Shown: positions 1,368 to 61,530 of the stretch, in pieces
Layout: each line of letters begins with the position of its first letter
How positions within the stretch are numbered: the first letter of the stretch is position 1
Origin: Allacma fusca
Taxonomy: Eukaryota > Arthropoda > Collembola > Symphypleona > Sminthuridae
Direction of reading: 5' to 3'
DNA length: 64,000 nt
Assembly: GCA_947179485.1 (NCBI GenBank)
Contig: OX359245.1
Location: 43,883,067 to 43,947,066, forward strand
The notes under the pieces: generated by a model
What the model was told of the DNA's origin: nothing
What the model saw: only the letters and a program-made list of their open reading frames with translations
The model's database searches: none
Program-made: the position numbers and the translations under genes

Positions 1368-1497
1368 CTACACACTTATATCGCAGTAGTCGGGCGAGGA
1401 AGGAAATTGGAAGAGAGTCCGCAGCATATCTTTGATGTGTTTGAAATCAGGACGCATTTCTGGATCGAATTCCCAACAACGCATCATGATCTTATAG
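1368..1497 (-). CDS. Kinase last exon, copy A
   Basis: Reads YKIMMRCWEFDPEMRPDF and ends ...DYCDISV before a TAG. CWxxDPxxRP is the subdomain XI signature of tyrosine kinases. The acceptor AG is at 1499-1498. The first base joins the two left over from the exon at 1591-1802, so the phase is consistent. The same exon occurs at 13995-14124, 40487-40616 and 60207-60336. Confidence 0.8.
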
Positions 1498-1590
1498 CTA
1501 CATAAAATTAAAAAGCACTTATTCTTCAAGGTCTTTACTACGAAAATTCACATGTCAGTACGTGAGAACATAGTTTAAAAAAATAAATAC

Positions 1591-1802
1591 ATTTCTTCTG
1601 AAGCAAATTTTGGTCCCGACAGTCTCAAATTTTGTTCCAAGTAATCAATAAATTCAGTAGTCCAGCCCATGCCCGGGTATGGAATCAGACCCAAGGAGAA
1701 GATTTCCCATAATGTAACTCCATAGGACCAAACATCAGATTTGTGGGTAAATATCATAGATTTTAACGATTCTAACGCTAACCAGTGCCTCGGAAGCTTT
1801 TC
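1591..1802 (-). CDS. Kinase C-lobe exon (subdomains VIII-X), copy A
   Basis: Starts [13 protein letters not shown], matching the end of the activation loop (LPxRWxAxESL), then [19 protein letters not shown] and PYPGM, the subdomain IX-X core of receptor tyrosine kinases. Bounded by acceptor TTAG and donor GTATTT. Paralogous exons lie at 14213-14424 and 61090-61301; the exon is absent from copy C. Confidence 0.85.
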
Positions 1803-2047
1803 CTAAGAAAGTATAAGTATTTGCGGAATTTGTAATCCTATAGATTACATTACAATATACGTAATTATCTGTAAGCTAAAACATCAGCCTGCTGTTACAA
1901 TTGTAGATGAAAAATTTCTACTGAATAAAAATTCTACTTTACCTCCAAATGACACAAAAGGGCGGATTCATGTATTATTTATGGAGCGTGTGCATGAAAA
2001 TAAAAATGTATTACTTCTACGTACCTGAGACTTTTTAACATAATTGT

Positions 2048-3372
2048 CGGGTTGGTCAAATTAAAGGTTGGTTTGATATTGCCTGATGACTTCATAACAT
2101 CCTTCTTCAAGGGCCTCCAATTAGATTCTATGGTCTGTGTGTTCGCACCGGTAAAGGGATCTACGAAATTGTGAGCGTGCTCTACGTCATAATGTGCGTA
2201 TTCATGAATCAAGTCGCCCGTACGCTTTCCAACCGTCGGTAACAATGGTGGTACCTCTGGCCACGTGCTTCTGGATGAGTGGAATCAGAACCTCTGCGGT
2301 CCTCTTGTTGTCAGGCAATATTTCCAACCTGAAGCGGCCACGTTTGTTACCGTCCGGACCTGTTTGTATCTCAATCATTCCGAGCACCCAACTACCCTCA
2401 ACTAGACTTCCTGCAAGTCAGTAAAACATTTGTATTTAATTGTGAACGATTTGAAAACCTAATAAATAATTGATGTTTTTGTACCTCGATTGTATTTCCT
2501 CTTGCCCATCAGAGTTTCGTCAATTTCTACCGTCACGCCTTCTCCTCCAAGTTGGTAATCTTCATTCATCTTCATATCCAGCCACGCAAAACAGATTTCT
2601 CGACTGTAGTTTAACCAATCTGCAATAGTCTGGTGGGATGTTGATTCAGTGTCCGAAATTTCACGGGCCAAGAAATTGTAGCTTGTCTGATTATGTGCGA
2701 AGAAATAAAAAATTCGTAATACTTTGTCGAAGTACACATGGGTGCCATCAAAAACTGCAGATGTCGTTATGGAGTAACTGTAGGCATTTTTGTCACCGTG
2801 TTTTCTTCGCAGCGTACAAATCCAGCGAGGGTTGCCATCTTTTCTAAATTGAAGTGACATCTGTGATTGGCATTTCTGGCACTGCTTTCCATCTCGAAGT
2901 AACCGTTTGCCCTGTAGAAATTTTATAATTGCCTCTTCTCCTTCATCAAGAAGAGCCTGGAAGGTAGAATGCAATTTACTAAAATTAATATGTTAATTAT
3001 TACATGTGTTACTTTGTAAGAATTGTGTATTGAAGCTTGTGAAACGTACCCCAAAAAATTCAAGGGTTTGGGAGCAGGAGGTTCATCCTCTACGTCGTCT
3101 TCTGGTCTGTGAATCGGTGGGCTCGGGCATGCGGATTCCGAAACGGTGGTTGTGGAAGGAAGTGACTCCGCTACAGTCCTCGAGGTTGATGGAGTACTAG
3201 TTGTTGGACTTCCTGATGGATTTTCTGGTGACCCAGTACACAAACGCTTAGATCCAGAGCCGTAGTTGTCCTCTATCGTAGTTTGCCTCGAAGCTTTGGG
3301 ATGCGGTAGTAGTTTGGGGCCATCTTCGTTGAACCGTTGATGGCGCTGGATAGAACCCTTCTTTGCACCCAT
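2048..3372 (-). pseudogene. Merlin-type (IS1595/ISXO2-like) DDE transposase
   Basis: Exon 1 (3372-3050) begins MGAKKGSIQRHQRF and is Ser/Thr/Pro-rich. Exon 2 (about 2978-2485) carries a CxxC zinc-finger-like pair (CQKCQ), the usual N-terminal region of the family, and the motif VEIDETLMGKRKYNRG with the first catalytic Asp. Exon 3 (2410-2048) continues WVLGMIEI and IVTDGWKAY with the second Asp, then changes frame by one base near 2215 before YDVEHAHNFVDP and the acidic residue in QTIESNWR. GT-AG junctions are plausible at each exon edge. The frameshift and the missing 3' end make it non-functional. Confidence 0.75.
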
Positions 3373-3693
3373 GGTAAATTCGAAGTAGAGGTAAAATCTG
3401 GACGAAGGCTGGTGTAATAACCTAATGGGACCTTCTAGCTTAAGGCAGCTCCATTGAGCATCCAGAATTAAGTTCATGATGCCCAAATTGGGGTATATAC
3501 CCACTGACCCGACATAGCTCCGCCCGAAAATATTTGACGTTTTGGAAACGTTGCTACTAAAATTATTTGAGAGCTGACCTTTCCACTAGTTTGGGTACTT
3601 TTCCATTGATCTGATTGGCTGAAATGTACTGGGGTATTGTTGCCCTATATTACTCCCCACACACGCCATGTTTTCCCATGGTTAGTTATTACT

Positions 3694-4100
3694 CATTGTT
3701 AGCACCAGTTTTCGTTTAATCAATACAAAGTATATTCTCCGTGGAGTCAAAATATACTTGGTAGTACGTACGTAAATATTCATTGTCAGTACCAGTTTTT
3801 CTTCAATTAACACTAATTATATTCCCGATGGAATGAAAATATACTTGGTAGTACTTACGTAAATATTCATTGTCAGTACCAGTTTTTCTTCAATTAACAC
3901 CAGATATATTCCCGGTGGACTGAAAATATACTTGGTAGTACTTACGTAAATATTCATTGTTGAATTAATACCAAGTATATTCCTGGTGGAGTCAAAATAT
4001 ACTTGGTATTCCTTTCGTGAATGGTTATTGTAAGTACCAGTTTTCCTTCAATTAATACCAACTATATTCTTGGTTCAGTAAGTGTCTGGTAGTAAAGTAG
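3694..4100. repeat. 87-bp minisatellite inside the Merlin-like block
   Basis: The word 'cattgtcagtaccagttttt' recurs at 3781 and 3868, and 'cattgt' again at 3955, an exact 87-base period. Two more degenerate, partly shortened units follow to about 4100. Each unit contains 'aaaatatacttggtagtac'. No coding potential. Confidence 0.8.
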
Positions 4101-4651
4101 TGTACCAGGTAATTTTCCTGGTATTAGAACAGGAGTTTTGTATAGTGTGAACCAGCATAGCCACACCAGGTATATATTCGGGGGCGAATACCAGGTAGTG
4201 AAGTATATCCCTTTGGGCTTGGTTGTTTTTACTGCAATGTTTTCAGTATTGGAATTTCTAGCCAACTTTCCTTTAAATACAATTCCAAACGCTCCTTCTC
4301 CAAGTTTTTGGTCTTCTGCAGGGTAAACAATAATCAAGTAATAATTTTAGACAACCGGACATTCAAAGCAATATTGAGCGCTCAGAAAGCTGTATGTTCG
4401 TACAATCTAAATTTTCAAAGGAATTAACCTACAATTAATAAATCTTTCCACTTTATCTCAAACTCTTGGTTGTAAGGTATAAACTGGGCGTTCTCGTGAG
4501 CAAATTGACCTGCTCTGATTTGATTTCCATCTCCATTCTTAAACAAATCAATTTCCAAGGCAGTGAGTAGATCCTAACATCAAAAATGTCTCAATGAATA
4601 ATCCGTGCTTGTTTATTGGCGTCAGCAGTTAAAATGAGTAATTTTAATTAC

Positions 4652-5792
4652 ACTTCTTTGCCGGTACTTCCTATACAAAATAATCAATGGTATCCCTAAA
4701 ATGATGACGATTCCCAAAAGGCTGTACCAGTATGGAGCCAGGGTTCCAGTATTTGTTTCAAGAGTTTCATTTAAAGTGTCCCTTTCATCGGAGCCATCGC
4801 TGCAATGAGTTACACCATCAAAATAAAAATGCCCAGGAATGCATCCAATCTTATCATGACACTCAAACTCCGACCAATGACAACGACTTCCGTTGTCGCA
4901 ACGTTCTTCATCAGAGTCATCACTGCAATCATTCCATCCATCACTGATGTAGCTCCTTGGAATGCATTTGGTTCTATTTGGGCATGCGAAATGTGTCCAG
5001 TAGCATGCGGACCCACGCAGACAATTTTGTTCATCAGACCCATCCTCGCAATCTATAACACCATCGCATTTTTGCTCACCAGAAATGCATCTTTTGCTAA
5101 GACGGCAAGAAAATTGTGTCCAGAGGCACCCGTGTTTGCCTCTCTGACAGTTTTCCTCGTCGGATCCATCGAATACACCGCAATCATAGATGCCATCACA
5201 AATGTCGGTCAAGCCATATTTTTTATTTGACACTTTGCACATAATTGGTCCGTGGGTTCTCTCGGTACTGGTGCAATTTTTTTCGTCTGATCCATCTCTA
5301 CAATGAATCTTTTGATCGCACAATTCTATTTTAGGGATGCATTTATTTCCTTTATGACACGCAAATTGGGTTGGATGACAACCATCTAAATCTCTACAAT
5401 TTTCTTCATCTGAAGTATCGGTAAAACCACAATCATTGGCACCATTGCACACATCCTTCAGAGAAATGCAAATCGTGGTGACATTGCAGAAAAACTGGCT
5501 CTCAAAGCAATTTTCCATACTGTACGTGTTTCTGGATCTGGGACAATTCTCTTCATCGGAAGCGTCTTTGCAATCTAATTTTCCATCGCACTTCAGGTGC
5601 CCAGGAATACATTGATTCCCCTTGCGACATCCGTGCTGAGACCAATGACACCCGTTTACATCTTTACAATTTTCGTCATCCGAGTTGTCCCCACTTCCAC
5701 AATCATTTCGTCCATCGCAAACTAGTTTTTGATGAATACATACATTGGATATATTGCATTGGAACTCGTGTTTTTGGCAGAAGTTTGTGGTT
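4652..5792 (-). CDS. LDLa array plus transmembrane exon, copy A
   Basis: One open exon encodes eight LDLa modules (Cys spacing with DGxxDCxxxSDExxC), the fifth degenerate (CKVSNKKYG) and the last missing its final Cys pair. A single hydrophobic span (WYSLLGIVIILGIPLIILY) follows, then a basic stop-transfer RKYRQR. Splice acceptor TATAG and donor AGT|GTAATT. The first codon is shared with the preceding S1 exon in the correct phase. It has four fewer repeats than copy B. Confidence 0.85.
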
Positions 5793-5930
5793 CTATACAC
5801 AATAATTTTTTAAACGGGATAAGAATATAGGATTTTGAATAATGAGTTATATGAAGCGTGTATTTATATCTATGATATTACGATAATGACAACAATCTTT
5901 TAGTTGTTTACGGCTGAACGAAAATATTAC

Positions 5931-6348
5931 CCGAGTTTCATAACGCTTGCATGTATCCATCCAATGCTTGACTGGATATTGGTAAATAACGTTGGTCTCT
6001 CTTCAATATAATTATTTCCAATGGAAATGATTCCGCACAAGTAATCATTCCAGTAGTATTTGTCAGTGCATACTAAAAATCCGTCACAATCGTTCAGATA
6101 ACGGCGATCTCGATTTGCAGCGCACATGTGCTTGTCCGTAATGGCAGGGTACGCTTTCTTGCACACTATTTTCAAAAATAGTAGTGCATTCCTTATTGAG
6201 AAAATAATTAGTGGTGAATGCATCCAATGGTGATTTTCGGTTCGCCCAATTTACAAAAAGGCCAGTGACTACATATTTGGCTAGAAAATCATTTATTTTA
6301 GACTCCCGGAACGAAGGTAAAAATTTTATATCAAAATAAACAGTTACC
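5931..6348 (-). CDS. Trypsin-fold domain remnants (exon 6268-5931), copy A
   Basis: The exon at 6268-5931 encodes the S1 carboxy half: LFVNWANRKS (at the GWG position), HMCAANR, then LNDCDGFLVC where trypsins have GDSGGPxxC, then YLCGIIS and the terminal helix WIHASVMKLG. A 2-base deletion near 6170 relative to copy B breaks the frame. The donor of the previous exon is at 6348. Confidence 0.7.
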
Positions 6349-6611
6349 TATATAATTTGTATTTCGCTTGGGAAGTGAAACTGAAAATTCTTTGCTATGA
6401 ATGTCCAGGCCTTCTGTTAGGACTAGAAGTGCAATATCGTTTTCAAATGTGCCGTCAATGAAGTTGTCGTGAATGATTACTTGTTTCACATTCTGGGTCT
6501 GATTTTTTCCACTTGACATGTGATGCTATGCTGATGTTACCTGGAGACAGTCCAATAATGCAATGGGCGGATGTTAGAGCAAGAATTGTGGTCAGTAGAG
6601 CCGCACTGCAT

Positions 6612-7306
6612 TAGTGCATCGCATGGGTTCAAAACAGTCGAACCTGTACCTGAACCTGGACCCAAACTTTGGGTACCTCAAAAGCGTGAACCTGTACCTG
6701 AAAATGTACCCATTTCACAGGTTCAAATTTTTCGATCCTGAACCTGACCCAATTGCGTTTTTGTAGTACCCGCACCTGATTAGTACCTGAATCCGAAAAA
6801 GTACCCAAAAGACGACCTGAACCCGGGTATTTTTGGACCGGACCTGAATATGTTTGGGTACTTGAGAATCCAAACTTTTTTAAATTTTATCTTGTATTAA
6901 AAGTACAATTGGGTATTTGTAGTACAAAATATATTTAAAATGCATAAGCATGAAAGTTCACTGGTTCCTGGGACACCCTGCCATTGCTTTTGCGATGGAA
7001 ATCATTTGAGAAGCTTGAATCCTCCGGCCTTTAACTTTCAATCAATGAACCCAAACATTTCAGGTCTTTTGCGATCAGGTTCAGGTCTTTTATGTGTTGC
7101 ACCTGGTCCTGACAGGTAAAATCAAAACGGGTTTTTCTCTGTACCTGGTCCTGAACCTGAACCTGTACCCAATTTTACGGGTATAAAATATTGTACCCAG
7201 AAAGGACCCAAAATTATTGGGTCCAAAATAAATGAACCCATACTGAACCTGAACCTGGACCTGAACCCAAATACCCGGGTGCGACCTGAACCCATGCGAT
7301 GCACTA
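6612..7306. mobile_element. hAT-type non-autonomous element in S1 exon of copy A
   Basis: Inverted ends 'tagtgcatcgcatgggttca' and its complement at 7287-7306. It is flanked by an exact 8-base duplication, cactgcat, at 6604-6611 and 7307-7314; copy B has the empty site near 18375. The interior is largely degenerate repeats of 'gtacctgaacctg', probably subterminal binding repeats, with no transposase. TAGTG ends and an 8-base duplication point to the hAT superfamily. Confidence 0.88.
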
Positions 7307-7618
7307 CACTGCATCGGCAGGTACCTGGCGGGCTTTCCAGCCGAACAAAGTGGACATCGAAACTAGGGGAGGCAACATCGTCTAAAAATGATTTTGTAAA
7401 TTCTAAATATTTTAAAACATCAGAGCCAAGAACATCAACCAAAGTTTATACACAAGAAAATAGTTGAAAACAAAACGAATTATCTGTTGTGCATTTGCAT
7501 TGAATACGGCCCTGTAATTTATGGTATATTGCAATTCAAATAAAAAATTACATACCGTAAACAGCAGGAAAACTAATCATGATGGCTGTGCACAACTCCT
7601 GTGTTGAGGACTGTACAA

Positions 7619-10550: not shown

Positions 10551-10552
10551 AA

Positions 10553-13994: not shown

Positions 13995-14124
13995 CTACAC
14001 ACTTATATCGCAGTAGTCCGATGAGGATGGAAATTGGAAGAGAGTCCGTAGCACATCTTCGATGTGTTTGAAATCAGGACGCATTTCTGGATCGAATTCC
14101 CAACAACGCATCATGACCTTATAG
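13995..14124 (-). CDS. Kinase last exon, copy B
   Basis: Encodes YKVMMRCWEFDPEMRPDF...DYCDISV and the stop. Carries the subdomain XI Arg in the CWxxDPxxRP signature. Acceptor AG at 14126-14125. Confidence 0.8.
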
Positions 14125-14212
14125 CTACATAAAATTAATAACCACTTATTCTTAAAGGTATTTTCTACGAAAATTCACATGTGAGTATATCGTTTTTAAA
14201 TATAATTATTAC

Positions 14213-14424
14213 ATTTCTTCTGAAGCAAATTTTGGTCGCGAGAGCCTAAGATTTTGTTCCAAGTAATCAACAAATTCAGTAGTCCAGCCCATGCCCGGGT
14301 ATGGAATCAGACCCAAGGAGAAGATTTCCCATAATGTAACTCCATAGGACCAAACATCAGATTTGTGAGTGAACACCATAGATTTTAACGTTTCGATCGC
14401 TAGCCAGCGCCATGGAAGCTTTGT
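14213..14424 (-). CDS. Kinase C-lobe exon, copy B
   Basis: [15 protein letters not shown] then [16 protein letters not shown] and PYPGMGW: end of activation loop and subdomains IX-X. Fully open; it would be in frame with the kinase were it not for the upstream 5-base deletion. Confidence 0.85.
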
Positions 14425-14647
14425 CTAAGAAAGTATAAGTATTTGCGGAATTTGTAATCTCTTAGATCACATTACAATATATATGTAATTATCTGTAAGC
14501 TTAAACATAAGCCTGCTGTTATAATTGTATGTGAAAAAAGTTTACTGAATAAAATTCTACTTTACCTCCAAATGACACAAAAAGGGGGAATCATGTATTA
14601 TTTATGGAGCATATGAATTAAAATAAAATTATATTACTTCAACGTAC

Positions 14648-14765
14648 CTGCGACTGTTTAACATAATTGTCATAATTCAGAAGCTGGCGAGATAGTCCGA
14701 AATCCGTTATTTTGACGTGGTTTTCGCTGTACAAAAGAACTAGTGGCTAAGTCCCCATGGATAAC
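14648..14765 (-). pseudogene. Kinase catalytic-loop exon with 5-base deletion, copy B
   Basis: Reads VIHGDLAT and then loses frame; copy C reads IHGDLATRNVLLYSENH then ITDFGLSRQL. Copy B lacks five bases between 'ctagt' and 'tctttt' (near 14740 on the plus strand). The missing bases encode the catalytic-loop Arg-Asn, and the shift removes DFG. The HGD triplet replaces the usual HRD. Confidence 0.85.
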
Positions 14766-14855
14766 CTAAGTTTTATGTTAACAAAGCATACATTGTAGAC
14801 AACTTTTAAAATAAATACACATTTATTTTGTAAATTTTAAAATGAAACCAGACAC

Positions 14856-15073
14856 CCTCTTGCTTTCCAAGTGTTGCATTCCTCGTGCAATTTGAACAGC
14901 CCAATTCACAAAAACGTTCCCACTCAATGAATCGATTGTCCCAGGGATTTCCTGATTTGTAATTGTTTGTTCATTTATTGAAACCAAATTGTCAAGTTTT
15001 GTCCTCACAGTCGTTCGAAGGTGCAAATCCAAGCTTCCCAAAGGGCAGTACTCGACCAATACATAAACTCTTC
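14856..15073 (-). CDS. Kinase hinge and alphaE exon, copy B
   Basis: Encodes RVYVLVEYCPLGSLDLHLR, the hinge of tyrosine kinases, then a kinase-insert-like stretch (LDNLVSINEQ) and WAVQIARGMQHLESKR, which leads directly into VIHGD in the next exon. The insert places the kinase near the split-kinase/FGFR-like receptor group. Paralogue at 42570-42787. Confidence 0.85.
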
Positions 15074-15297
15074 CTGAAAACAATTAAAATGAATTACACT
15101 CCATTATATTTAATGCATAGGAATACATTATAATTTCGCAGATTGAATGATGTTTGGCGAAGGTATGTATTCTTATTATTGGGCCTGACATGTACATAGA
15201 CCACTATGACTACGTGCAATAGTGATGTTGTAACTTTTGAAAATTCGAAATATCGAAACAACACGTATGTATGTAAGTAACTTATTGTAAATCTAAC

Positions 15298-15516
15298 CTT
15301 CTCTCAAAAATTCTGTGCATGCCCCGAGTAATTGTACAATATTTTCGTGCATTTCCAGGTGAATCATGACTTTCAGCTCGGACATAAGAGCCAGTAGAAT
15401 GGATCTGTCAACTTTGGGCTTGGTTGTTTTCACTGCAATGTTGTCAGTATTGGAATGTCCAGCCAACTGTCCTTTAAATACAATACCAAAAGCTCCTTCT
15501 CCAAGTTTTTGGTCTT
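15298..15516 (-). CDS. Kinase N-lobe exon, copy B
   Basis: DQKLGEGAFGIVFKGQL (glycine-rich loop), IAVKTTKPK (ATP-binding Lys), LMSELKVMIHL (alphaC Glu), HENIVQLLGAC (beta4). All canonical N-lobe residues are present. Paralogues at 43003-43221 (intact) and 4207-4315 (truncated). Confidence 0.88.
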
Positions 15517-15630
15517 CTGCCGGGTAAACAATGAATAAAGTAATAATTCTAGAGAACAGGACATTCAAAGCAATATTGAGCGCTCAGAAAGCGGTAAGTT
15601 CGTACAATATAAATTTTCAAAGGAATTAAC

Positions 15631-15775
15631 CTAAAATTGTAAAATCTTCCCACTTTATCTCAAACTCTTGGTTGTAAGGTATGAACTGGGCGTTCTCGTG
15701 AGCAAACTGGCCAGCTCTGATCTGATTTCCATCTCCTTTCTCAAATAACTCTATTTCCATAGAAGTCAGTAGATC
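15631..15775 (-). CDS. Juxtamembrane exon, copy B
   Basis: Encodes DLLTSMEIELFEKGDGNQ then IPYNQEFEIKWEDFTIL. The PYxxxxEIKxEDF pattern is the usual lead-in to receptor tyrosine kinase domains. Joins in phase to the transmembrane exon and the N-lobe exon. Paralogues at 4429-4573 and 43336-43480. Confidence 0.8.
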
Positions 15776-15855
15776 CTAACATCAAAAATTTTGCAATGAT
15801 TGATCCATACGCTTGTTTATTGCCATTAATAGTTGACATGAGTAATTTTAATTAC

Positions 15856-17524
15856 GCTTCTTCGCCGGTACTTCCTGTACAAAATAATGAATGGTATCCC
15901 TAAAATGATGACGATTCCCAAAAGGCTGTACCAGTATGGAGCCAGGGTTCCCGTATTTGTTTCAAGAGTATCATTTAAAGTGTCTCTTTCATCGGAGCCA
16001 TCGCTGCAATGAGTTACACCATCAAAATAAAAATGTCCAGGAATGCATCCACTCTTATCATGGCACTCAAACTCCGACCAATGACAACGACTTCCGTCGT
16101 CGCAACGTTTTTCGTCAGAGCCATCTCTGCAGTCATTGCGTCCATTACAGATGTACCTCCTTGGAAAGCATTCGGTGCTATTTGGGCATGCGAAATGTGT
16201 CCAGTAGCATGAGGATCCGTCTAGACAATTTTCTTCATCTGACCCATCATCACAATCTCTTTTTCCATCGCATTTCTCATCACCGGAAAGGCATCGTTTG
16301 CTAATACGACAAGGAAATTGTGTCCAGAGGCATCCGTGTTTGCCTTGCTGACAGTTTTCCTCATCGGATCCATCGAATTCACCGCAGTCACGGTAGCCAT
16401 CACAAATGTTGTACAAGTAATATTTTTTATTTGACACTTTGCACCTAAGTGGTCCGTTGGTTCTCTCGGTACTGGTACATTTTTTTTCGTCTGATCCATC
16501 TCTACAGTGGTTCTGTTGATCGCACATTTTTACCTTAGGTATGCATTTATTTCCCTTATGGCACGCAAATTGGGTCGGATGACAACCATCTAAATCTCTA
16601 CAATTTTCTTCGTCGGAAGTATCCGTAATACCACAATCATTAGCACCATTGCACACACTTGTCTCATCAATACAAATTTTGGAAATGTTGCAAGTAAACT
16701 GTTCTGAATTACAGTTGCGCCATGCTCTATATGAACAATTTTCCTCATCGGAACCATCGCTGCAGTCTTCCACACCGTCACAAACAGCACTTCTCAGAAT
16801 GCATTTATTGCCTAGGCGGCACGCATGCTGGGTCCAATGACAACCGTTGACCTGCCTGCAATCTTCTTCATCAGAGCCATCAATGTCTCCGCAATCTTTA
16901 ATTCCATTGCATACATCGCTCAGGGAAATGCAAATCATGGTGACATTGCAAAGAAACCCTTTTTCAGAGCAGCTTACCATCCGGTCTCTGTTTCTGGATG
17001 TGAGACAATGTTCCTCATCCGACCCATCTTCGCAGTTTTTCTTACCATCACAAATTTGGCTTCTCGGAATGCATTTATTACCCAGGCGGCAGGAATGCTG
17101 AGTCCAATGGCAACCATTGACCTGCCTGCAATCTCTTTCATCCGAGTCATCAATCCCTCCACCATCGTTAATTCCATTGCACACACTCTCCAGAGAAATG
17201 CAAATCGTGGTGACATTGCAGGAAAACTCGCTGTCAGCGCAGCTTTCCATACTGTACATGTTTCTGGATCTGTGACAGTTCTCTTCATCGGAACCGTCTT
17301 TGCAATCTAATTTTCCATCGCACTTAAGGTGCCCAGGAATACATTGATTCCCCTTGCGACATCCGTGCTGAGACCAATGACACCCGTTTACATCTTTACA
17401 ATTTTCTTCGTCGGAGTTGTCCCCACTTCCACAATCATTGCGTCCATCACAAACTAGTTTTTGACGAATACATGCATTGGATATGTTGCATTGGAACTCG
17501 TGTTTTTGGCAGCTGCTTATGTTT
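15856..17524 (-). CDS. LDLa x12 plus transmembrane exon, copy B
   Basis: A single 1.67 kb open exon with twelve LDLa modules. Odd- and even-numbered modules alternate between two subtypes (CNVTTICISL... and CHWTQHxCRLGNKCI...), so the array grew by two-repeat units. Module 9 is degenerate at its first Cys and module 12 lacks its last Cys. Several N-x-S/T sites. After module 12: linker, a membrane span (WYSLLGIVIILGIPFIILY) and RKYRRR. Calcium-binding acidic residues (D-x-SDE) are kept in most modules. LDLa arrays normally bind ligands or lipoproteins outside the cell. Confidence 0.9.
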
Positions 17525-17663
17525 CTACACACATTAATTTTTTTAAACGGCATAATAATGTAGGATTCTGAATAATGAGTTATAGAAAGCGTGTATTTAT
17601 ATCTATGAAATTACGGTATTGACAACAATATTTTAGTATTTTACGGCTGTACAAAAATATTAC

Positions 17664-18000
17664 CCGAGTTTCATAATGCTTGCATGTATCCATTCGATGC
17701 TTGACTGGATATTGGTAAATAACGTCATTGTCTCGTGAATATAATTATTTCCAATAGAAATGATTCCGCACAAGTAACCATCCAAGTATTTGTCATAGCA
17801 CATTAAAAATCCATTACAATCTTCACGCATACGTAGACCTCGAGTTGAAGCGCACATGTGCTTACCCGTAATGGTAGGGAACGCTTTCTTGCACACTCTA
17901 TTTTCAAAAAGATTAGTGCGCTTCTTAATGAGATAATAATTAGTGGTTAATGCATCCAGTTTTGATTTCCCGTTCACCCAAGTTACAAAATCGACTGCGT
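17664..18000 (-). CDS. S1 pseudoprotease carboxy-half exon, copy B
   Basis: Reads DFVTWVNGKS, NRVCKKAFP, KHMCAST, MREDCNGFLMC, YLCGIISIGNN, LFTNIQSSIEWIHASIMKLG. The order matches trypsin from the GWG region to the terminal helix (YTNVxxxxxWI). Aligned without gaps, GDSGGPxxC becomes EDCNGFLMC, so Ser195 is Cys. Open and in phase with both neighbours. Confidence 0.8.
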
Positions 18001-18107
18001 CTGTTTGGATAGAAAACCATTTTTATTTAGACCCGCGGAACGAAGGTTAAAATATTGTAAATTTTACGTGTACGGACAAAACATGCTTTATGTGAGTACA
18101 CCCTTAC

Positions 18108-18469
18108 CTATATAATTTGTATTTCGCTTGGGAAGTAAAACTGAATATTTTTCGTTATCTATGTCCAGACCTTCTGTTAGGACTAGAAGTGCGATATCAT
18201 TTTCAAATGTGCCCTGAATGAAGTTGTCGTGAATGATTACTTGTTTCACATTCTGGTTCTGATTTTTTACATTTTCGTACTTGTCATGTGATGCTATGCT
18301 GATGTTAACTGGAGACAGTCCAATAATGCAATGGGCGGATGTAAGAGCAACAAATGTGGTCAATAGAGCGGCAGTGCATTGGCAGGTACCTGGCGGGCTT
18401 TCTAGCCAACCAAAGTAGGCATCAAAATTAGGGGAGGTAACATCGTCTAAAAATGATTTTATGTAAATT
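18108..18469 (-). CDS. S1 pseudoprotease amino-half exon, copy B
   Basis: Contains VALTSAHCIIG (His57 motif), FENDIALLVLTEGL (Asp102 motif) and VLLPKRNTNYI. The usual IVGG start corresponds to FLDDVTSPNF, so no zymogen-activation site. Two extra bases near the 5' end (plus-strand 'atgtaaatt' near 18461) create a stop in the expected phase; copies A and D lack them. Confidence 0.7.
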
Positions 18470-18689
18470 CTAACTATTTTAAAACACCATAGCCAAGAAC
18501 ATCAACTAATGTTTGTACACAAGAAAATAGTAGCAAACGAAACGAATACAGATAGGCTGTTGTGCATTTGCAGTTAATACGGCCCTGTAATTTATGGTAT
18601 ATTGCAAATCAAATAAAAAATTACATACCGTACACAGCAGGAAAAGTAGTCATGATGACTGTGCACAACTCCTGTGTTGAGGACTGTAC

Positions 18690-18960
18690 AAGCTCAGCAT
18701 CACTACTATAATAAACTAATGGTATTGTTTGAAAGGGGCGCGTATTTGCAAACTTAGTGATGTTAACTTTAATAATAAACGATACGTAGTTGTTCGTCGG
18801 AAATATTTACTCAAACGCGTGTTGAAGGAAAGTTTTAGTGGAAGTGGACGTGCAGAAAACTGACCACAAATGCACGACGGACAATTTTGTGGTTAAAAGT
18901 TTTAATGTACACAATTGAAGTATGAGAAGTTCTCACATCCTTATTTCTAAAATGCTAGCG
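18690..18960. other. Upstream flank of kinase copy B
   Basis: Conserved with 8774-8990 and 62960-63230. No gene; probably includes the promoter and 5' untranslated region of the receptor kinase. Confidence 0.4.
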
Positions 18961-39360: not shown

Positions 39361-40870
39361 AGCAAAATATCAAATCGCCAGTCAAGTTATCGACTTCTCT
39401 GTCTGACAACTGGCAGAGGAATTGAAATTCTAGAACCATAATGTTGTCTGCAATGTCCACGTTGAATTTATTTTTAATTTTGTCAAAACGAAGGCCAAGC
39501 TTGGAAAACATGCTACAGAAAATTCTTTCACAAATTACAAATAATTTAAAGGTCAGTATTTTCCACAGAATAAATTCTGGTTTTTACGTTGTTTTTATAA
39601 ACAACGAATATTACTTAATATATACCAACTTTAAATTATTATCGATAGACTGGAAAGTTCAGTGAAAGTCCAATTTCTGCAAAACAATTTATACAGGCAC
39701 AGTATTTTCTAAAAGTCTATGTACATACGTGCATATAAGAAAGGAGTTTAAGGAGTACTTGCTATCTTATGGAACAGAATTACATGTTATTGTTACAGTC
39801 ACGTTAAGATTTAAGTCCTGTATAAATGCTTGATTTTCTTTGTATTACTATTAAGGCTCAAATCATTACAGTGAGAATCTTCTGACACGAGTCTAACTGT
39901 ATGCTAAAATGTTCACAAGTTCCAAAATATGAAATAAATTCATACCAAAAAGAGCTAAAAACGAGCTTTTGCGCCCTCAAAAGTTAAAAACAGGGTTCTC
40001 TGGCAAATACTGTCAACTTTCCGTAAAAAATACATTACGGAAAAGGACGAAAACTTTGGAAATGGCGTACAGCCACGCTCGAAGGAGAAATGTAGTACAT
40101 TTTCACGTTGCACATACTCGTTTCAATACTATTCTTAACTGAGTGCTTTGAAAACCTTTAGTTTCAAAGTGGCATGTAATTTGTATACCAACGACACACT
40201 AATGAGATAATTGCATCATATTATTATTACGATTGCAGTGACTTTGTTTCCCAAGTCAAACTTAATATGAACGTACGCGAATAATTATTATAGAATTTCA
40301 AAATTCAGAATTCAATGTAAAACAATTACATCGAACCAAGCAAGGAGGACAGGAACCACTTTCGTGTTGCGGGAAAAAAATACCTATAATTTCAGGTCTG
40401 GGTTGGGTTCTGACGCGTCTCCCGATTCTTTATTAGATGACACCAGCTCTGGTGCTAATACGGAAATTAAAATATCCATCTAATCTCTACACACTTATAT
40501 CGCAGTAGTCGGACGAGGAAGGAAATTGGAAGAGAGTCCGCAGCATATCTTCGATGTGTTTGAAATCAGGACGCATTTCTGGATCGAATTCCCAACAACG
40601 CATTATGATCTTATAGCTACATAAAATTAATAAGCACTTATTCTTAAAGGTCTTTTCTACGACAATTCACATGTGAGTACGTGAGAATATAGTTTTCAAA
40701 AAAATGTAAAAATAAATTGTATTTTTTAAAAAACGTATTACTTCTACGTACCTGAGACTTTTTAACATAATTGTCATAATTCAGAAGCTGGCGAGATAGC
40801 CCAAAATCAGTTATTTTGATGTGGTTTTCACTGTACAAAAGAACGTTTCTAGTGGCTAAGTCCCCATGGA

Positions 40871-42465
40871 TAGTGCTGTAATATTGTACTCGTTTAGTAT
40901 TGTACTTTTGTATTGTTTTTGTCTTTGGTACAAAACTAAACAAACAATATCCATTTTCGAGATACAAAACTAAAACAAAAACAAAACAGGAATTGAAAAA
41001 AACAATACAATCCAAATTGTATTGTTTCAAGGTTCTAGAGACGCTAGAAATTTACTAAAGTGATTGTTGTAATAGATTTCTAGAGCACATAGGAATTGAT
41101 TTGTGTAATTGGAATCGTGAAAAAACACGTCAAAGCACAAAAACTGGGCATTGACTAATTATTGGTAGATTCGCCTATTATCGCCCATATAAAATATACA
41201 CTTACATTGAGTATGTCATTCTAGTGTAATGTGACTATTAATGCGCCAATAAAGTCAATCATAGGTGATTTACTACTAGTTACCAAGTTTCATTATAGGT
41301 CATGCGCCCCTTAAAACCGTAATCTGTCATTAGACTATTGGTGACCCAATAAGGTCAATTTGAGGTCACATGACCTTACTGTGTCACTAGTAGTCACATG
41401 ACCTCAGATTGACCTTACTGTGTCACTAGTAGTCACATGACCTCAGATTGACCTTACTGTGTCACTAATAGTCACATGACCTCAGATTGACCTTACTGTG
41501 TCACTAATAGTCACATGACCTCAGATTGACCTTACTGTGTCACTAATAGTCACTTTGACTGTTATCATATTGATTATTAAAGGTTGTAACGGCTGAGGCC
41601 ACTATATCAACCAATAAAACCCTATTATTATTATTATTATATTGATTATTAGACGCCACCGATAATATGTACTAGTTGTAGGTTACATTTAATGTGGATT
41701 GGTAAGACGTCATGAAAAAGGTCACGAATTAAATCAACACTGGCTAATGACAATTCAATGGCATCAGATATGATACCAATGAATCGGTACTGATCAATAA
41801 AATTGGCTAACCGTATGGTTTAAATGTTGACCTGGATAAATCTAGTCTGTGTCTAACAAAGACAAAAGACGTAGTCTAACAAACGAACTATGCGATTTGT
41901 AAATGTAGTCCACGCATAGGGGACATTTCTACATCGATGAAATAGGTGGTAAAAGCCAACGGCTGAGCAAATTGAAAATATAGATATCTGAGCCCAAGCG
42001 TCTACTCTATCCATTCTTATTTTAAGCAATGGTAGTGAATATTGTTTATGAAATTATGTTCTTCTGGAAATTACAATGTGGTTATTACAGGGATTATTCA
42101 CAAATAGGTTGGTGCCACAGAATTGCACCCTTCAAAATTCGACCGTCAACAGATTCAATGCATTTTATATGGGAGATTCGTCAATGACTGGTTTTTTGAT
42201 CTTTTACGTAATTTTTAAACAACTAAATTGCACAAATCAATTCCTACGTGCTCTAGAACTCAGATACAACTATCACTTTAGCAAATTTCTAGCGTCTTCT
42301 AGAACCTTAGAACAATACAATACAGATTGTACAAAAACAAAAACAATCTGATAGAAGTACAAAACAAAAACAAAACTCGGTGTACAAAACAATATCTTAG
42401 TTGTACTACTTTTGTACTTTTCGCCAAAGTACAATACAATACTAAAAGGACAAATTACAGCACTA
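40871..42465. mobile_element. hAT-type foldback-like element in catalytic-loop exon
   Basis: Inverted ends 'tagtgctgtaat' and complement; exact 8-base duplication cccatgga (40863-40870, 42466-42473); empty site in copy B near 14760. The inverted repeats extend inward at least 240 bases (for example 'ctagaaatttactaaagtg' near 41043 pairs with 'cactttagcaaatttctag' near 42275). The centre holds a 39-base minisatellite and unique DNA. No transposase. Confidence 0.88.
41383..41555. repeat. 39-bp minisatellite inside the hAT-type element
   Basis: 'gtcactagta/gtcactaata' recurs at 41383, 41422, 41461, 41500 and 41539, an exact 39-base period. Each unit contains 'gtcacatgacctcagattga'. Confidence 0.85.
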
Positions 42466-42569
42466 CCCATGGATAACCTAATTTTTATGCAAACAAAGCA
42501 TACATAGTAAACAATTTCTTTTAAATAAATACACGTTTATTTTTTAAATTTTAAAATGAAACCAGACAC

Positions 42570-42787
42570 CCTCTTGCTTTCCAAGTGTTGCATTCCTCGT
42601 GCAATTTGAACAGCCCAATTCACAAAAACGTTCCCAGTCAAGGAATCGATTGTCCCAGGGATTTCCTGATTTGTAATTCCTTGTTCATTTATTGAAACCA
42701 AATTGTCAAGTTTTGTCCTCACAGTCGTTCGAAGGTACGTATCCAAGCTTCCCAAAGGGCAGTACTCGACCAATACATAAACTCTTC
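42570..42787 (-). CDS. Kinase hinge and alphaE exon, copy C
   Basis: VLVEYCPLGSLDTYLR, insert segment, WAVQIARGMQHLESKR. Open; same splice phases as 14856-15073. Confidence 0.8.
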
Positions 42788-43002
42788 CTGAAAAAATTAA
42801 AACTAATTACACTCCATTATATTTAATATATAGGAATACATTATAATTTCGCAGATTGAATGGTATTTGACGAACGTATTCTTAATATTGGGCCTGACAT
42901 GCACATAGGCCACTATGACTTAGTGCAATAGTAATGTTGTAACTTTTGAAAATACGGACTATCGAAACAACACGTTTGTTTGTAACTTATTGTAAACCTA
43001 AC

Positions 43003-43221
43003 CTTCTCTCAAAAATTCTGTGCATGCCCCGAGTAATTGTACAATATTTTCGTGCATTTCCAAATAAATCATGACTTTCAGCTCGGACATAAGAGCCAGT
43101 AGAATGGTTCTGTCAACTTTGGGCTTGGTTGTTTTCACTGCAATGTTTTCTGTATTGGAATGTCCAGCTAACTGTCCTTTAAATACAATGCCAAACGCCC
43201 CTTCTCCAAGTTTTTGGTCTT
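43003..43221 (-). CDS. Kinase N-lobe exon, copy C
   Basis: LGEGAFGIVFKGQLAG, AVKTTKPK, SELKVMIYL, HENIVQLLGAC: glycine loop, ATP-binding Lys and alphaC Glu intact. Open. Confidence 0.82.
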
Positions 43222-43335
43222 CTGCCGGGTAAACAATGAATCAAGTAATAATTTTAGAGTGCAGGACATTCAAAGCAATATTGAGCGCTCAGAAAGCTGT
43301 AAGTTCGTACAATATAAATTTTCAAAGGAATTAAC

Positions 43336-43480
43336 CTAAAATTATTAAATCTTTCCACTTTATCTCAAACTCTTGGTTGTAAGGTATGAACTGGGCGTTC
43401 TCGTGAGCAAATTGGCCAGCTCTGATCTGATTTCCATCTCCTTTCTCAAACAACTCTATTTCCATAGAAGTCAGTAGATC
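43336..43480 (-). CDS. Juxtamembrane exon, copy C
   Basis: Equivalent to 15631-15775, with the IPYNQEFEIKWKDL-type lead-in to the kinase. GT-AG bounded. Confidence 0.75.
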
Positions 43481-43560
43481 CTAACATCAAAAATGTCGCA
43501 ATGATTGATCCATATGCTTGTTTATTGCTATTTATAATTAACATGAGTAATTTTAATTAC

Positions 43561-44857
43561 GCTTCTTCGCCGGTTCTTCCTGTACAAAATAATCAATGGT
43601 ATCCCTAAAATGATGACGATTCCCAAAAGGCTGTACCAGTATGGAGCCAGGGTTCCAGTATTTGTTTCAAGAGTTTCATTTAAAGTGTCCCTTTCATCGG
43701 AGCCATCGCTGCATTGAGTTACACCATCAAAATAAAAATGTCCAGGAATGCATCCACTCTTATCATGGCACTCAAACTCCGACCAATGACAACGACTTCC
43801 GTCGTCGCAACGTTCTTCATCAGAGCCATCTCTGCAGTCATTGCCTCCATCACAGATGTAGCTCCTTGGAATGCATTGGGTTCTATTTGGGCATGCGAAA
43901 TGTGTCCAGTAGCATGCGGTTCCATCCAGACAATTTTGTTCATCAGATCCATCCTTGCAATTTACCACACCATCGCATTTTTGCTCACCTAAAATGCAAC
44001 TTTTGCTAAGACGGCAAGAAAATTCTTTCCAGTGGCACCCGCGTTTGCCTTCCTGACAGTTTTCCTCATCGGACTCATCGAATTCACCGCAGTCACGGAT
44101 GCCATCACAAATATTGTCCAAGTCGTAGTTTCTATTTGACATTTTGCACATAAGTGGTCCGTTGGTTCCATCGGCACTGGTACAATTTTTTTCGTCTGAT
44201 CCATCTATACAGTGGTTCTTTTGATCGCACATTTTTACTTTAGGTATGCATTCATTTCCCGTATGGCACGCGAATTGGGTCCGATGACAAAAATCTAAAT
44301 CCAAACAATTTTCTTCGTCGGAAGTATCCGTAATACCACAATCATTAGCACCATCGCACAAACTTTCTGCATGAATACAAATTTTGGAAATCCTGCAAGG
44401 AAACTGTTCTAAATTACAGTTGGGCCATGCTCTATTTGAACAATTTCCCTCATCGGAACCATCGCTGCAGTCATCCACACCGTCACAAACAGCAGTTCTC
44501 AGAATGCATTCATTGCCTAGGTGGCACGCATGCTGGGTCCAATAACAAACATTGACCTGCCTGCAATCAGTTTTATCCGAGTCATCAATCCCTCCACAAT
44601 CGTTAATTCCATTGCACACATGCTCCAGAGAAATGCAAATCGTGGTTACATTGCAGAAAAACTCGCTCTCAGCGCAACGTTTCTTACTGTACCTGTTTAT
44701 GAATGTGTGACAATTCTCTTCATCGGAACCGTCTTTGCAATCTAATTTTCCATCGCACTTCAGGTGCCCAGGAATACATTGATTCCCCTTGCGACATCCG
44801 TGCTGAGACCAATGACACCCGTTTACATCTTTACAATTTTCTTCATCCGAGTTGTCC
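43561..44857 (-). CDS. LDLa array plus transmembrane exon, copy C
   Basis: Nine full LDLa modules plus the end of module 1 (SDEENC). The start of the exon is missing: at about 44857 'gagttgtcc' is joined to intron sequence 'tatctatgatatt', a deletion of about 270-300 bases compared with copy B. Membrane span and basic RKNRRR as in the other copies. Two repeats fewer than copy B. Confidence 0.82.
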
Positions 44858-44921
44858 TATCTATGATATTACGGTATTGACAACAATATTTTAGTTGTTT
44901 ACGGCTGTAAAAAAATATTAC

Positions 44922-45258
44922 CCGAGTTTCATAATGCTTGCATGTATCCATCCAATACTTGACTGGATATTGGTAAATAACGTCGGTCTCGCTTCACTAT
45001 AACTATTTTGAATAGAAATGATTCCGCACAAGTAATTATTCCAGTATTTGTCATAGCATACTAAAATACCGTCACAATCGTTCGGATAAGGTTGACCTCG
45101 ATTTGCAGCACACATGTGCTTGTCCATAATAGAAGGGTACGCTTTCTTGCACACTCTATTTTCAAAAAGAGTAGTGCCTTCCATATTGAGAAAATAATTA
45201 GTGGTGAATGCATCCAATGGTGATTTCCGGTTCGCCCAATTTACAAAAACGCCATTGT
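44922..45258 (-). CDS. S1 pseudoprotease carboxy-half exon, copy C
   Basis: FVNWANRKSPLD, NRVCKKAYPS, KHMCAANRG, YPNDCDGILVC, YLCGIISIQN, WIHASIMKLG. Open. Again Cys at the Ser195 position and a Cys in LCGIIS. Confidence 0.78.
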
Positions 45259-45395
45259 CTATGTTTGGTTAGAAAATCCTTTTTTAGACTCCCGGAACGA
45301 AAGTCAATATATTATATCAAAAAAACAGTTACCTATATAATTTGTATTTCGCTTGGGAAGTGCAACTGAATATTCTTTGCTATATATGTCCAGAC

Positions 45396-59260: not shown

Positions 59261-60349
59261 ATTTTACCTACAGAATAAATCCTGGTTTTTACGCTGTTTT
59301 TATTAACAAAGAATATTACTTAATATATACCAACTTTAAATTATTATTGATAGACTGGAAAGTTCAGTGACAGTCCAATTTCTGCAAAACAATTTATAAA
59401 GGCACAACAGTTTCTAAAAATCTAACTATGTACATACATACGTGCATATAAGAAAGGAGTAAGGAGTACTTGCTATCTTATGGAACAGAATTACATTTTA
59501 TTGTTACAGTCACGTTAAGATTTAAGTCCTGTATAAATGCTTGATTTTCTTTGTATTATTATTAAGGCTCAAATCATTACAGTGAGAATCTTCTGACACG
59601 AGTCTAACGTCTAACTGTATGCTAAAATGTTCACAAGTTCTAAAAAATGAAATAAATTAATGCCAAAAAGAGCTAAAAACGAGCTTTTGCGCCTTCAAAA
59701 GTTAAAAACAAGTTCTCTGGCAAATACTGTCAACTGAATTTCGTAAAAAATACATTCCGGAAAAGGACGAAAACTTTGGAAAAGGCGTACAGCCATGCTC
59801 GAAGGAGAAATATAGTACATTGTAACGTTGTGCATACTCGTTTCAATACTATTCTTAACTGAGTGCTTTAAAAACCTGTAGTTTCAAAGTGGCATGTAAT
59901 TTGTATACCAACGACACACTAATGAGATAATTGCATCATATTATTATTACGATTGCAGTGACTTTGTTTCCCAAGTCAAACCTAATATGAACGTACGCGA
60001 ATAATTATTATAGAATTTCAAAATTCAGAATTCAATGTAAAACAATTACATCGAACCAAGCAAGGAGGACAGGAACCAATTTCGTGTTGCGGGAAAAAAA
60101 TACCTAAAATTTCAGGTCTGGGTTGGGCTCAGACGCGTCTCCTGATTCTTTATTACATGACACCAGCTCTGGTGCTAATACGGAAATTAAAATATCCATC
60201 TAATCTCTACACACTTATTTCGCAGTAGTCGGGCGAGGAAGGAAATTGGAAGAGAGTCCGCAGCATATCTTCGATGTGTTTGAAATCAGGACGCATTTCT
60301 GGTTCGAATTCCCAACAACGCATCATGATCTTATAGCTACATAAAATTA

Positions 60350-61002
60350 GGTTGCTACAGGACTGTCGAGAGGTGAGGTTGTGCTCATCTGAGCTCCCTT
60401 ATCTTTTGGCAGATCTGCATAAAAACTTTGAGACACATAATTCTTTTTTTTTTTGTCTCCACCACCCGAGTCTCTCTGCTTGGAGAGTTGTGATCCCTGC
60501 TGTCAAGTGTCTACCGGGCGAGCGTCTTGCACCATAACGCTACCTTGTGCTGTTAGTGATTTGTCACCACCGAATCAGCACTTGATTCCCGGGTAGTTTG
60601 CACCCATAGGCTTTTGTGACATTTTGATTTAGCAGTGATTACCACGAATCCACGTCATTGCCTTGAGGTATTGACTTGGGGGTGAGTGTCCCAATATCTG
60701 GCACATTCCTCAGGTTCTGCATAAAGTGCAGAGGCTCACCTGCATTTTACTCTTGGTAGAATAGCAGCCGGAGCCCCTGAAATAACTTGAGTAGATTGCA
60801 TATCTTAGTGAAGCAGTTGCCCAAATAGCAACTTAGGGATACGAAATCGGATAAGCAAATTCAGGAAAGTGGACATCCCATGCTCACTCTTCCAATGCTA
60901 TTCGTAAATTAACATGTTCGACAGGGTAATCTGCAATGGGCCCACTGATGGCCTGAGCAGTGTCCCATAACTTTGGTTGTGGGACCCCCTAAAATACATA
61001 CA
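60350..61002 (+). mobile_element. SINE-like / truncated non-LTR insertion in last intron of copy D
   Basis: 653 bases flanked by the duplication tacataaaatta (60338-60349, 61003-61014). Ends in a short (TACA)n-type tail, so it was probably copied by target-primed reverse transcription. No RT motif and no clear tRNA promoter boxes. Either a SINE or the 3' part of a LINE. Confidence 0.7.
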
Positions 61003-61089
61003 TACATAAAATTAATAACCGCTTATTCTTAAAGGTCTTTTCTACGAAAATTCACATGTGAGTATATCGTTTTTAAATATAATTATTAC

Positions 61090-61301: not shown

Positions 61302-61530
61302 CTAAGAAAGTAATTATACGTATTTGCGAAATTTGCAATCTTATAGATTACATTACAATATATGTAATTATCTGTAAGCTAAAACATCAACCTGCTGTTA
61401 CAATTGTATATGAAAAATTTCTAATGAATAAAAATTCTACACTTTACACTCCTAATGAAGCAAAAGGGCGGAATCATGTTTTATTTATAGAGCGTATACA
61501 TGAAAATAAAAATTTATTGTTTCAACGTAC

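Follow-up and report, generated by a model that had tools for sequence, protein, structure and literature searches.

A candidate PVR/VEGFR-class receptor tyrosine kinase of the springtail Allacma fusca with a degenerate trypsin-like domain and an LDLa array

Families of receptor tyrosine kinases are commonly regarded as old, with an outer architecture that is rather fixed within animals. ALK has a MAM domain. HGF is an S1 homologue, and in HGF and MSP the S1 domain lies within a soluble ligand, together with kringles. Insect serine protease homologues (SPHs) are soluble proteins, often with clip domains, whose S1 fold has an altered catalytic residue. SPHs are described as being without activity (PMC4676143), ALK family receptor kinases carry LDLa (PMC8662651) and ALK is placed in the insulin-receptor superfamily (PMC7486895).

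Here we describe a locus in a 64,000-nucleotide stretch of Allacma fusca DNA (the window), together with public gene models from the same species. The combination of a degenerate trypsin-like domain and a row of LDLa on a receptor kinase was absent from the literature matches listed, and none of these describes a receptor kinase with an external S1 domain, in agreement with the initial annotation. Like HGF/MSP with MET/RON, the locus links a receptor kinase with a pseudo-protease of S1 fold; in contrast to HGF/MSP, the Allacma S1 domain lies within the receptor chain, no kringle was found and the kinase is a different one. An S1 fold with an altered catalytic residue is also shared with SPHs, but the Allacma domain is membrane-bound on a kinase and has Cys at the Ser position. 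LDLa and a tyrosine kinase also occur in one protein in P0021 (psyllid) and P0040 (crinoid), whose kinases lie outside the arthropod PVR/Collembola group and in which no S1 is named. Kinase grouping is shared with arthropod PVR and vertebrate VEGFR-PDGFR, and an Ig domain is present in the close relatives P0006 and P0008; the Allacma proteins differ from this class in the S1 domain and LDLa array outside and in a kinase insert that is shorter than in the PVR rows, the kinase being matched as one piece. Pfam gave no Ig match in the one unit of the window with the full exon set (unit B) or in the gene models P0001–P0003, and no MAM match was found in P0001–P0003.

Unit B comprises ten exons linked by nine GT-AG introns (Table 1), which provide, in order, a candidate signal peptide, two S1 exons, 12 LDLa, one membrane span, a juxtamembrane region and a kinase, with a reading frame that is open from the signal-peptide exon through kinase exon 2. 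The places initially assigned to the S1, LDLa, membrane-span and kinase exons were confirmed on the minus strand by Pfam and exon mapping, and both junctions named there, 17664/17524 and 15856/15775, are exact. Pfam matched Trypsin (E 5.7e-15), LDLa (2.4e-88, 11 stretches) and PK_Tyr (7.1e-80) in hand-joined pieces of unit B, the kinase query being read through a damaged exon; these values rule out chance as the source of the domains. The membrane span corresponds to a hydropathy peak in P0001, which is near-identical to unit B. In kinase exon 3 a small deletion causes a frameshift within the catalytic loop, after which the frame runs into a stop. There are two candidates for the 5′ end: the exon at 18567, whose counterpart is open in unit D and has a stop in unit A, and MTTFPAVY from 18653, the start used by the public models. 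A stretch similar to MTTFPAVY is found at the model start or inside the model in P0002/P0003. Rfam and tRNA scans across the window returned no matches.

Table 1. Features of the receptor kinase cluster, in window coordinates.
Feature	Unit	Position	Strand	Remarks
Candidate signal-peptide exon	B	18507..18567	-	MHNSLSVFVSFATIFLCTNI; donor GTTGAT, phase 1; directly upstream of S1
Exon-like stretch MTTFPAVY, upstream	B	18629..18653	-	First residues of public model P0001
S1 exon a	B	18108..18446	-	His57 in SAHC, Asp102 in NDIALL
S1 exon b	B	17664..18000	-	EDCNGFLMC, Cys at Ser195 position; in-frame TAA overlapped by donor
LDLa array and membrane span	B	15856..17524	-	12 SDE motifs
Juxtamembrane exon	B	15631..15775	-	Exon mapping
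Kinase exon 1	B	15298..15516	-	Glycine loop GEGAFG, VK lysine
Kinase exon 2	B	14856..15073	-	Exon mapping
Kinase exon 3	B	14648..14765	-	Catalytic loop HGD, DFG; frameshifted in window; intact in P0001
Kinase exon 4	B	14213..14424	-	Exon mapping
Kinase exon 5 and stop	B	13997..14124	-	Exon mapping
Unit A, damaged	A	1371..7580	-	S1a interrupted; annotated elsewhere as P0121
Unit C, damaged	C	40490..45399	-	Annotated elsewhere as P0005, joined to unrelated sequence
Unit D, damaged	D	60210..62947	-	S1 open, only two LDLa repeats, then end of kinase exon 3

The S1, LDLa and kinase exons have homologues in all four units (A–D), which lie within a larger repeated block; the full set is present in B alone. 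Domain order and strand are identical in the four, and a unit-specific order was therefore rejected. In unit A, kinase exon 1 is truncated, exon 2 is unmatched and only the end of exon 3 is present; in unit C, no match was obtained for most of S1a, for the beginning of the LDLa array including its acceptor, or for kinase exon 4; in unit D, a large internal deletion has removed the rest of the LDLa array, the membrane span, the juxtamembrane region and kinase exons 1–2. The window thus holds no complete intact copy, and the idea of an intact receptor here is not supported, all four copies being damaged and unit B frameshifted. The claim that the four-unit layout predates the duplications stands in part: it holds for an age before the recent tandem duplication only, and better evidence of age comes from P0002/P0003, whose two S1 halves share 41–59% identity with those of P0001.

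P0001 is unit B in another record, and P0002 and P0003 are diverged paralogues; all three gene models join S1, LDLa, membrane span and kinase. An extracellular part, a single membrane span and an intracellular tyrosine kinase are therefore found in one chain in these models, as in the exon chain of unit B, which supports the proposal of a single gene, P0121 adding support for its S1–LDLa part. The domain search was positive for S1, LDLa and PK_Tyr in one protein for P0002 and P0003 (Trypsin 5.8e-26 and 2.2e-25, respectively). P0001, whose model is without the S1 start, gave no Pfam Trypsin match; its S1 shares 52% identity with the S1 of P0003 across 91% of that region. The P0001 model is also without part of kinase exon 4, and its catalytic loop is intact. 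P0002 and P0003 retain the kinase motifs GxGxxG, VK, HGDLAxRN and DFG, the P0002 model stopping before the last exon. A further Allacma model, P0004, has 12 LDLa, a membrane span and a tyrosine kinase. By eye, its LDLa show the alternation seen in the S1-bearing receptors, and its kinase falls in the same group; S1 is missing from the model, whose 5′ end may be cut because the contig is only 4184 bases long. A common LDLa origin with the S1-bearing receptors was not rejected (AU p 0.48). The sections available from PMC9630974 give no detail of the annotation method of the older assembly, and those from PMC10427803 state that RNA-seq-based annotation was planned. One other model, P0126, has kelch repeats ahead of an Ig kinase and looks like fused neighbours.

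The kinase tree was built from 56 rows hand-chosen from 234 proteins; of 59 chosen proteins, P0131, P0133 (collembolan) and P0143 were omitted. P0001–P0003 group together (100/99) within a clade restricted to Allacma (100/100), which also contains Ig receptors and the LDLa-only P0004. This clade in turn belongs to a larger one that comprises all 39 collembolan rows tested (100/100). The Collembola unite with the PVR-type rows of arthropods (100/99) and are separate from the rows for vertebrate VEGFR1, PDGFR, CSF1R and FLT3. On these 56 chosen rows, phylogeny assigns the kinase to the PVR/VEGFR/PDGFR class. A kinase of ALK or MET type seems unlikely, since the nearest matches and the neighbours in this tree, which has no ALK or MET rows, are VEGFR/PVR-type. 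For other members of the collembolan clade, the predicted ectodomains are of Ig, PAN, plexin-like (P0130), lysozyme or crystallin type, and the extracellular architecture of the springtail receptor-kinase branch has apparently been altered several times. A word search for 'kinase' gave no mention in the Folsomia and Holacanthella genome papers.

The trypsin fold is indicated by PDB sequence matches (1.2e-9 for unit B, 2.2e-16 for P0002); an AlphaFold2 model of P0003 from a 5-row alignment reached a pLDDT of 31, and the fold assignment therefore rests on these matches and on the Pfam match of unit B. As judged from their residues, the window copies have lost the standard protease apparatus: the Ser195 position is Cys in all four units, His and Asp being kept in unit B. 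The label of pseudoprotease is accordingly supported in part: it fits the window units, but P0002/P0003 keep Ser195 with His57, Asp102 and the 191–220 cysteine pair. In these two paralogues S1 might be a working protease, the receptor cutting its ligand or itself to signal. We regard this as quite improbable, because both have Asp at oxyanion Gly193 and Gly196 and Arg at position 189, the activation site R/IVGG was not seen in unit B or P0001–P0003, and the window copies have Cys195. A different reading of the gene models is that they merge two neighbours, one being a secreted S1 homologue that would stop at an in-frame TAA behind WIHASIMKLG and the other an LDLa receptor kinase. In all four units such a TAA directly follows the end of the S1 domain, the same annotation apparently fuses other neighbours (P0005 and P0126), and P0004 provides a receptor kinase model without S1. 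However, the TAA sits inside the donor (CAG/GTAATA in D), and the spliced S1–LDLa frame is open in three of the four units (B, D and A), across introns of 139, 144 and 138 nucleotides that contained neither AATAAA nor ATTAAA (3/3 units checked). On visual inspection, a signal peptide is missing from the LDLa frame, as the initial annotation had also noted, and the LDLa exon was therefore rejected as an independent first exon. P0121, the unit A model, couples S1 to LDLa at the same junction as unit B, and in the diverged P0002/P0003 the two parts also meet at this position (ELRT, ELGV). A merger of neighbours is thus very improbable.

Rates of change between the copies bear on two further alternatives. 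Pooled dN/dS was 0.93 for S1 against 0.18 for kinase/juxtamembrane in the B–D comparison, 1.06 (S1b) against 0.27 in B–C and 0.80 (S1) against 0.25 in B–A, and the excess of amino-acid change in S1b over the kinase gave p = 0.0035 (B–D) and 0.006 (B–C). Over six pairs S1b ranged from 0.55 to 1.53, with point values above 1 in four; none of the six intervals excludes 1, and positive selection on S1b is therefore not claimed. S1a gave 0.53–0.68 with wide intervals, and juxtamembrane/kinase 0.07–0.31 in eight of nine comparisons, the exception being TK2 in B–C (1.76 on 7 changes). By these values, S1b, the second half of the domain, evolves at close to the neutral rate, and the kinase is under constraint. 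Relaxed constraint may also account for the S1 values, given the S1b intervals spanning 1, the TK2 exception and the likeness of P0002 and P0003 in S1a (0.85), which is no lower than in the N-terminal half of the kinase (0.80). S1 could be a decaying passenger that drifts without a role on a functional receptor made of kinase and LDLa array, as might be indicated by the S1b rates and the interruption of S1 in unit A, and because P0001 has lost the 191–220 cysteine pair and the window copies Ser195. We consider this unlikely: S1 is open end to end in units B and D and complete in P0002/P0003, the S1a values, wide as their intervals are, lie below 1, and S1a identity among paralogues is 57–85%. 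It is also conceivable, if rather doubtful, that the entire window cluster is a dead array of pseudogenes of historical interest only. The damage to every unit favours this, but the single small deletion is the only break found in unit B, the catalytic loop is intact in the other record of that unit, the juxtamembrane/kinase values between copies are low in eight of nine comparisons, and P0002/P0003 would be left untouched by such a reading.

The best explanation, which we hold to be probable, is that the cluster represents tandem, recently duplicated receptor tyrosine kinase genes of Allacma fusca, and that these belong to a lineage-specific receptor kinase in which a former protease domain serves as a fast-evolving binding module. 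The ancestral layout would have been signal peptide, S1, about 9 to 12 LDLa, membrane span, juxtamembrane region and a PVR/VEGFR-lineage kinase, and may have arisen when a collembolan Ig-type receptor kinase gained the LDLa array and then, in this presumed order, the N-terminal S1. S1 would bind an extracellular partner instead of cutting it, the LDLa array may act as a calcium-dependent stalk or co-binding surface, and partner binding would cluster the receptors, so that the kinase signals like PVR/VEGFR kinases. That S1b changes at a near-neutral rate, in a family that is clustered and so far Allacma-only, suggests a fast-changing partner; candidates are a microbial or parasite protein, a host protease or serpin, or a reproductive protein. 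The fast change of S1 is compatible with the role first proposed for the receptor, that of a sensor for proteases, lipoproteins or pathogens.

A broader and highly speculative extension, drawn by analogy, is that Collembola evolved 'integrated decoy' kinases, a PVR-like module being joined repeatedly to extracellular domains, among them degenerate defence enzymes. Integrated decoys work likewise in plant immune receptors. The disabled trypsin domain of the Allacma locus might bait microbial protease inhibitors, the C-type lysozyme of Orchesella dallaii P0167, in which the catalytic Asp position is changed, might bait lysozyme inhibitors, and an attack on host enzymes would then switch on the kinase.

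A PVR/VEGFR-type kinase that appears to bear a trypsin-fold domain and LDLa thus stands beside springtail relatives of the same clade for which plexin-like, lysozyme, PAN or crystallin domains are predicted. If this holds true in transcripts, Collembola would be a natural experiment in which growth-factor-type kinases were rewired to new inputs, and may offer a possible animal example of enzyme decoys within signalling receptors.

Unit B, the fullest of the four tandem copies, has its exons in the order signal peptide, S1a (His57 and Asp102), S1b (Ser195 position), LDLa-TM, juxtamembrane and five kinase exons, with a reading frame that is open from the signal peptide to kinase exon 2. Its hand-joined pieces matched Trypsin (5.7e-15), LDLa (2.4e-88, 11 stretches) and tyrosine kinase (7.1e-80) in Pfam, and the S1b-LDLa (17664/17524) and LDLa-TM/juxtamembrane (15856/15775) junctions fall exactly where the initial annotation had placed them. 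The candidate signal-peptide exon reads open in units B and D, whereas that of unit A has a stop. It is flanked by S1a and, upstream, by an exon-like stretch (18653) that opens P0001, the public predicted protein for unit B from another record; since P0001 begins there, the 5' end of the unit B gene is doubtful. The intron between the LDLa-TM and juxtamembrane exons (15855-15776) contains an in-frame stop and then AATAAA in all three units that have it (B, A and C), from which a kinase-less short isoform is possible.

Features of the window and their positions
Feature	Position	Strand	Remarks
Unit B gene	18567-13997	minus	ten exons, nine GT-AG introns of 60-224 bases
Candidate signal-peptide exon, unit B	18567-18507	minus	overlooked in the initial annotation
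Repeated ORFs	10472-11638, 36143-37138, 48917-50411	plus	ionotropic-receptor-type, divergent, by eye
LINE-type element	52549-55845	plus	endonuclease and sub-threshold reverse-transcriptase match in 52549-54318
Retroelement-like ORFs	21909-25124	plus	
Retroelement-like ORFs	19593-20930	minus	
38-base tandem repeat array	34861-36000		19 register copies of 300-base reference

Four pieces of the ionotropic-receptor-like ORFs were scanned against Pfam and matched nothing. Within the retroelement-like region, 24465-25124 gave a weak reverse-transcriptase match below the Pfam cut-off; some ORFs there resemble envelope proteins by eye only, and the two run against Pfam matched nothing.

In the window the kinase of unit B is not intact, as exon 3 has a small deletion inside the catalytic loop and the frame downstream runs to a stop. 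In unit A, S1a is interrupted and much of the kinase is absent; in unit C the LDLa acceptor, kinase exon 4 and the greater part of S1a are missing, and unit D is without most LDLa repeats, the TM, the juxtamembrane exon, kinase exons 1-2 and most of exon 3. All units sit within a larger repeated block, and their common layout therefore represents one event, not four.

Two separate genes, an S1 homologue and an LDLa receptor kinase, might have been merged in the models. In each of the four units the S1 end carries an in-frame TAA, and the chief reason for care is that the annotation behind these models has apparently fused other neighbours (P0005, P0126). However, the TAA overlaps the splice donor (CAG/GTAATA in unit D), and use of this donor keeps the reading frame continuous in B, D and A. 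The intron measures 139 bases in B, as had been claimed, 144 in D and 138 in A, and lacks AATAAA and ATTAAA in the three units checked; in unit C no acceptor was found. Moreover, the paralogues P0002 and P0003, whose S1 halves share 41-59% identity with those of P0001, are joined at the same place. The continuous frame and this shared joining place support the earlier claim of one gene, and a merger of two is improbable.

The protein search scored 7978 candidates and returned 2175 matches, and among the best 120 of these, which were examined, Allacma fusca models stood at the top. P0001 (1075 aa) comes from a 26,342-base contig, hence separate from the 64-kb window, and differs little from unit B (95% identity across 97% of the query). 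Its catalytic loop is intact, and part of kinase exon 4 is omitted from the model; it gave no Pfam match to Trypsin at 0.001, the start of S1 being missing from the model, and its S1 is 52% identical to that of P0003. The co-occurrence of S1, LDLa and kinase in one protein was recovered in the diverged paralogues P0002 (1002 aa) and P0003 (1062 aa), each with Trypsin, nine LDLa stretches and tyrosine kinase in Pfam. P0121 corresponds to unit A, with an S1-LDLa junction identical to that of unit B, and P0005 is unit C fused to unrelated sequence. By reading, S1 sequence was present in five of six LDLa-bearing Allacma proteins examined (P0001-P0003, P0005, P0121) and absent from P0004. The S1 part of P0003 alone was compared with 1437 candidates measuring 0.55-1.75 times the query length, and the four proteins retrieved were all from Allacma; within reach of this search, the S1 type is known on a long protein only there. 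These protein matches are the basis for assigning the window to Allacma fusca. Sequence and gene models together make the S1-LDLa-kinase architecture well supported.

Factor XI is among the S1 proteases to which the S1 domain of unit B aligns (best value 1.2e-9), and the P0002 domain aligns to crayfish trypsin (2.2e-16). Chymotrypsin numbers were assigned by alignment in the present analysis. His57 and Asp102 are retained, and the Ser195 position is Cys in the translations of all four window copies. No R/IVGG start was seen in unit B or P0001-P0003. The earlier term pseudoprotease fits the window copies in these two respects, but P0002 and P0003 keep Ser at 195. These two also have the 191-220 cysteine pair, both members of which are absent from P0001, and by alignment carry Asp193, Asp196 and Arg189. 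Given the missing R/IVGG, Asp193/Asp196, Arg189 and the Cys195 of the window copies, proteolysis of the usual type is unlikely; activity of the window copies with a Cys nucleophile is conceivable.

Pairwise Nei-Gojobori dN/dS between window copies (own script) was 0.93 (B-D) and 0.80 (B-A) for S1 and 1.06 (B-C) for S1b, 0.26-0.65 for LDLa, and 0.18 (B-D), 0.27 (B-C) and 0.25 (B-A) for the kinase and juxtamembrane sequence shared by the two copies compared. Amino-acid versus silent changes differed between S1b and kinase (p 0.0035, B-D; 0.006, B-C) and between whole S1 and kinase (p 0.021, B-D), but not significantly between S1b and S1a (p 0.11, B-D). S1b dN (0.125) lies within the B-D divergence of three introns (0.10-0.14). 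Thus S1b evolves at about the neutral rate while its frame stays open, and the kinase exons are held. Against this trend, kinase exon 2 has six amino-acid changes and one silent change between B and C, and no S1b dN/dS interval excluded 1. Identities between P0002 and P0003 (S1a 0.85, S1b 0.69, LDLa 0.81, kinase halves 0.80 and 0.94) indicate that S1b alone stands out in that pair.

In a kinase tree of 56 chosen rows (three of 59 were removed beforehand, one of them collembolan), all 39 collembolan rows formed one clade (100/100) next to decapod PVR rows (88/89), and the arthropod rows of PVR type all grouped together (100/99). Within an Allacma-only clade of eight (100/100), P0001-P0003 make up a clade of their own (100/99); the other members are the Ig receptors P0006, P0008, P0124 and P0126 and the LDLa-only P0004. 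P0006 is nearer the S1 group than is P0004 (98/83); a clade of P0004 with the S1 group was not rejected (AU p 0.48), and a single LDLa gain is therefore allowed there. P0021 (psyllid Cyamophila willieti) and P0040 (crinoid Antedon mediterranea) are LDLa receptor kinases with kinase domains that do not fall in the PVR group, which suggests that LDLa was added to receptor kinases on more than one occasion.

Predicted proteins of the Collembola clade carry other ectodomains. P0130 (Allacma) combines a plexin-A-like Sema-PSI-TIG ectodomain (Plexin A, 415 bits) with a TM peak and a kinase of PVR/PDGFR type in one chain, and its model starts without a signal peptide; it is possibly a convergent MET-like receptor. 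P0167 (Orchesella dallaii) has a predicted hydrophobic start, a C-type lysozyme domain (1e-17), a TM peak and a PDGFR-like tyrosine kinase; at the positions we take to be the catalytic Asp and Glu, the HMMER alignment has Gln for Asp and keeps Glu. PAN domains occur in P0196 (Folsomia candida) and beta/gamma-crystallin domains in P0160 and P0161 (O. dallaii), all on kinases of this clade; ten of ten further collembolan rows scanned gave no ectodomain match in Pfam at E 0.01.

Among the literature matches listed, from a coverage that excludes most subscription papers and preprints, none described a receptor kinase that bears an S1 domain, nor this collembolan radiation. PMC8662651 deals at a general level with how tyrosine kinase ectodomains are shuffled and names LDLa for ALK; trypsin has 0 mentions there. 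Judged from sequence, the genes most likely encode a clustered, lineage-specific receptor kinase in which a disabled protease fold and the LDLa array would serve as a binding surface.
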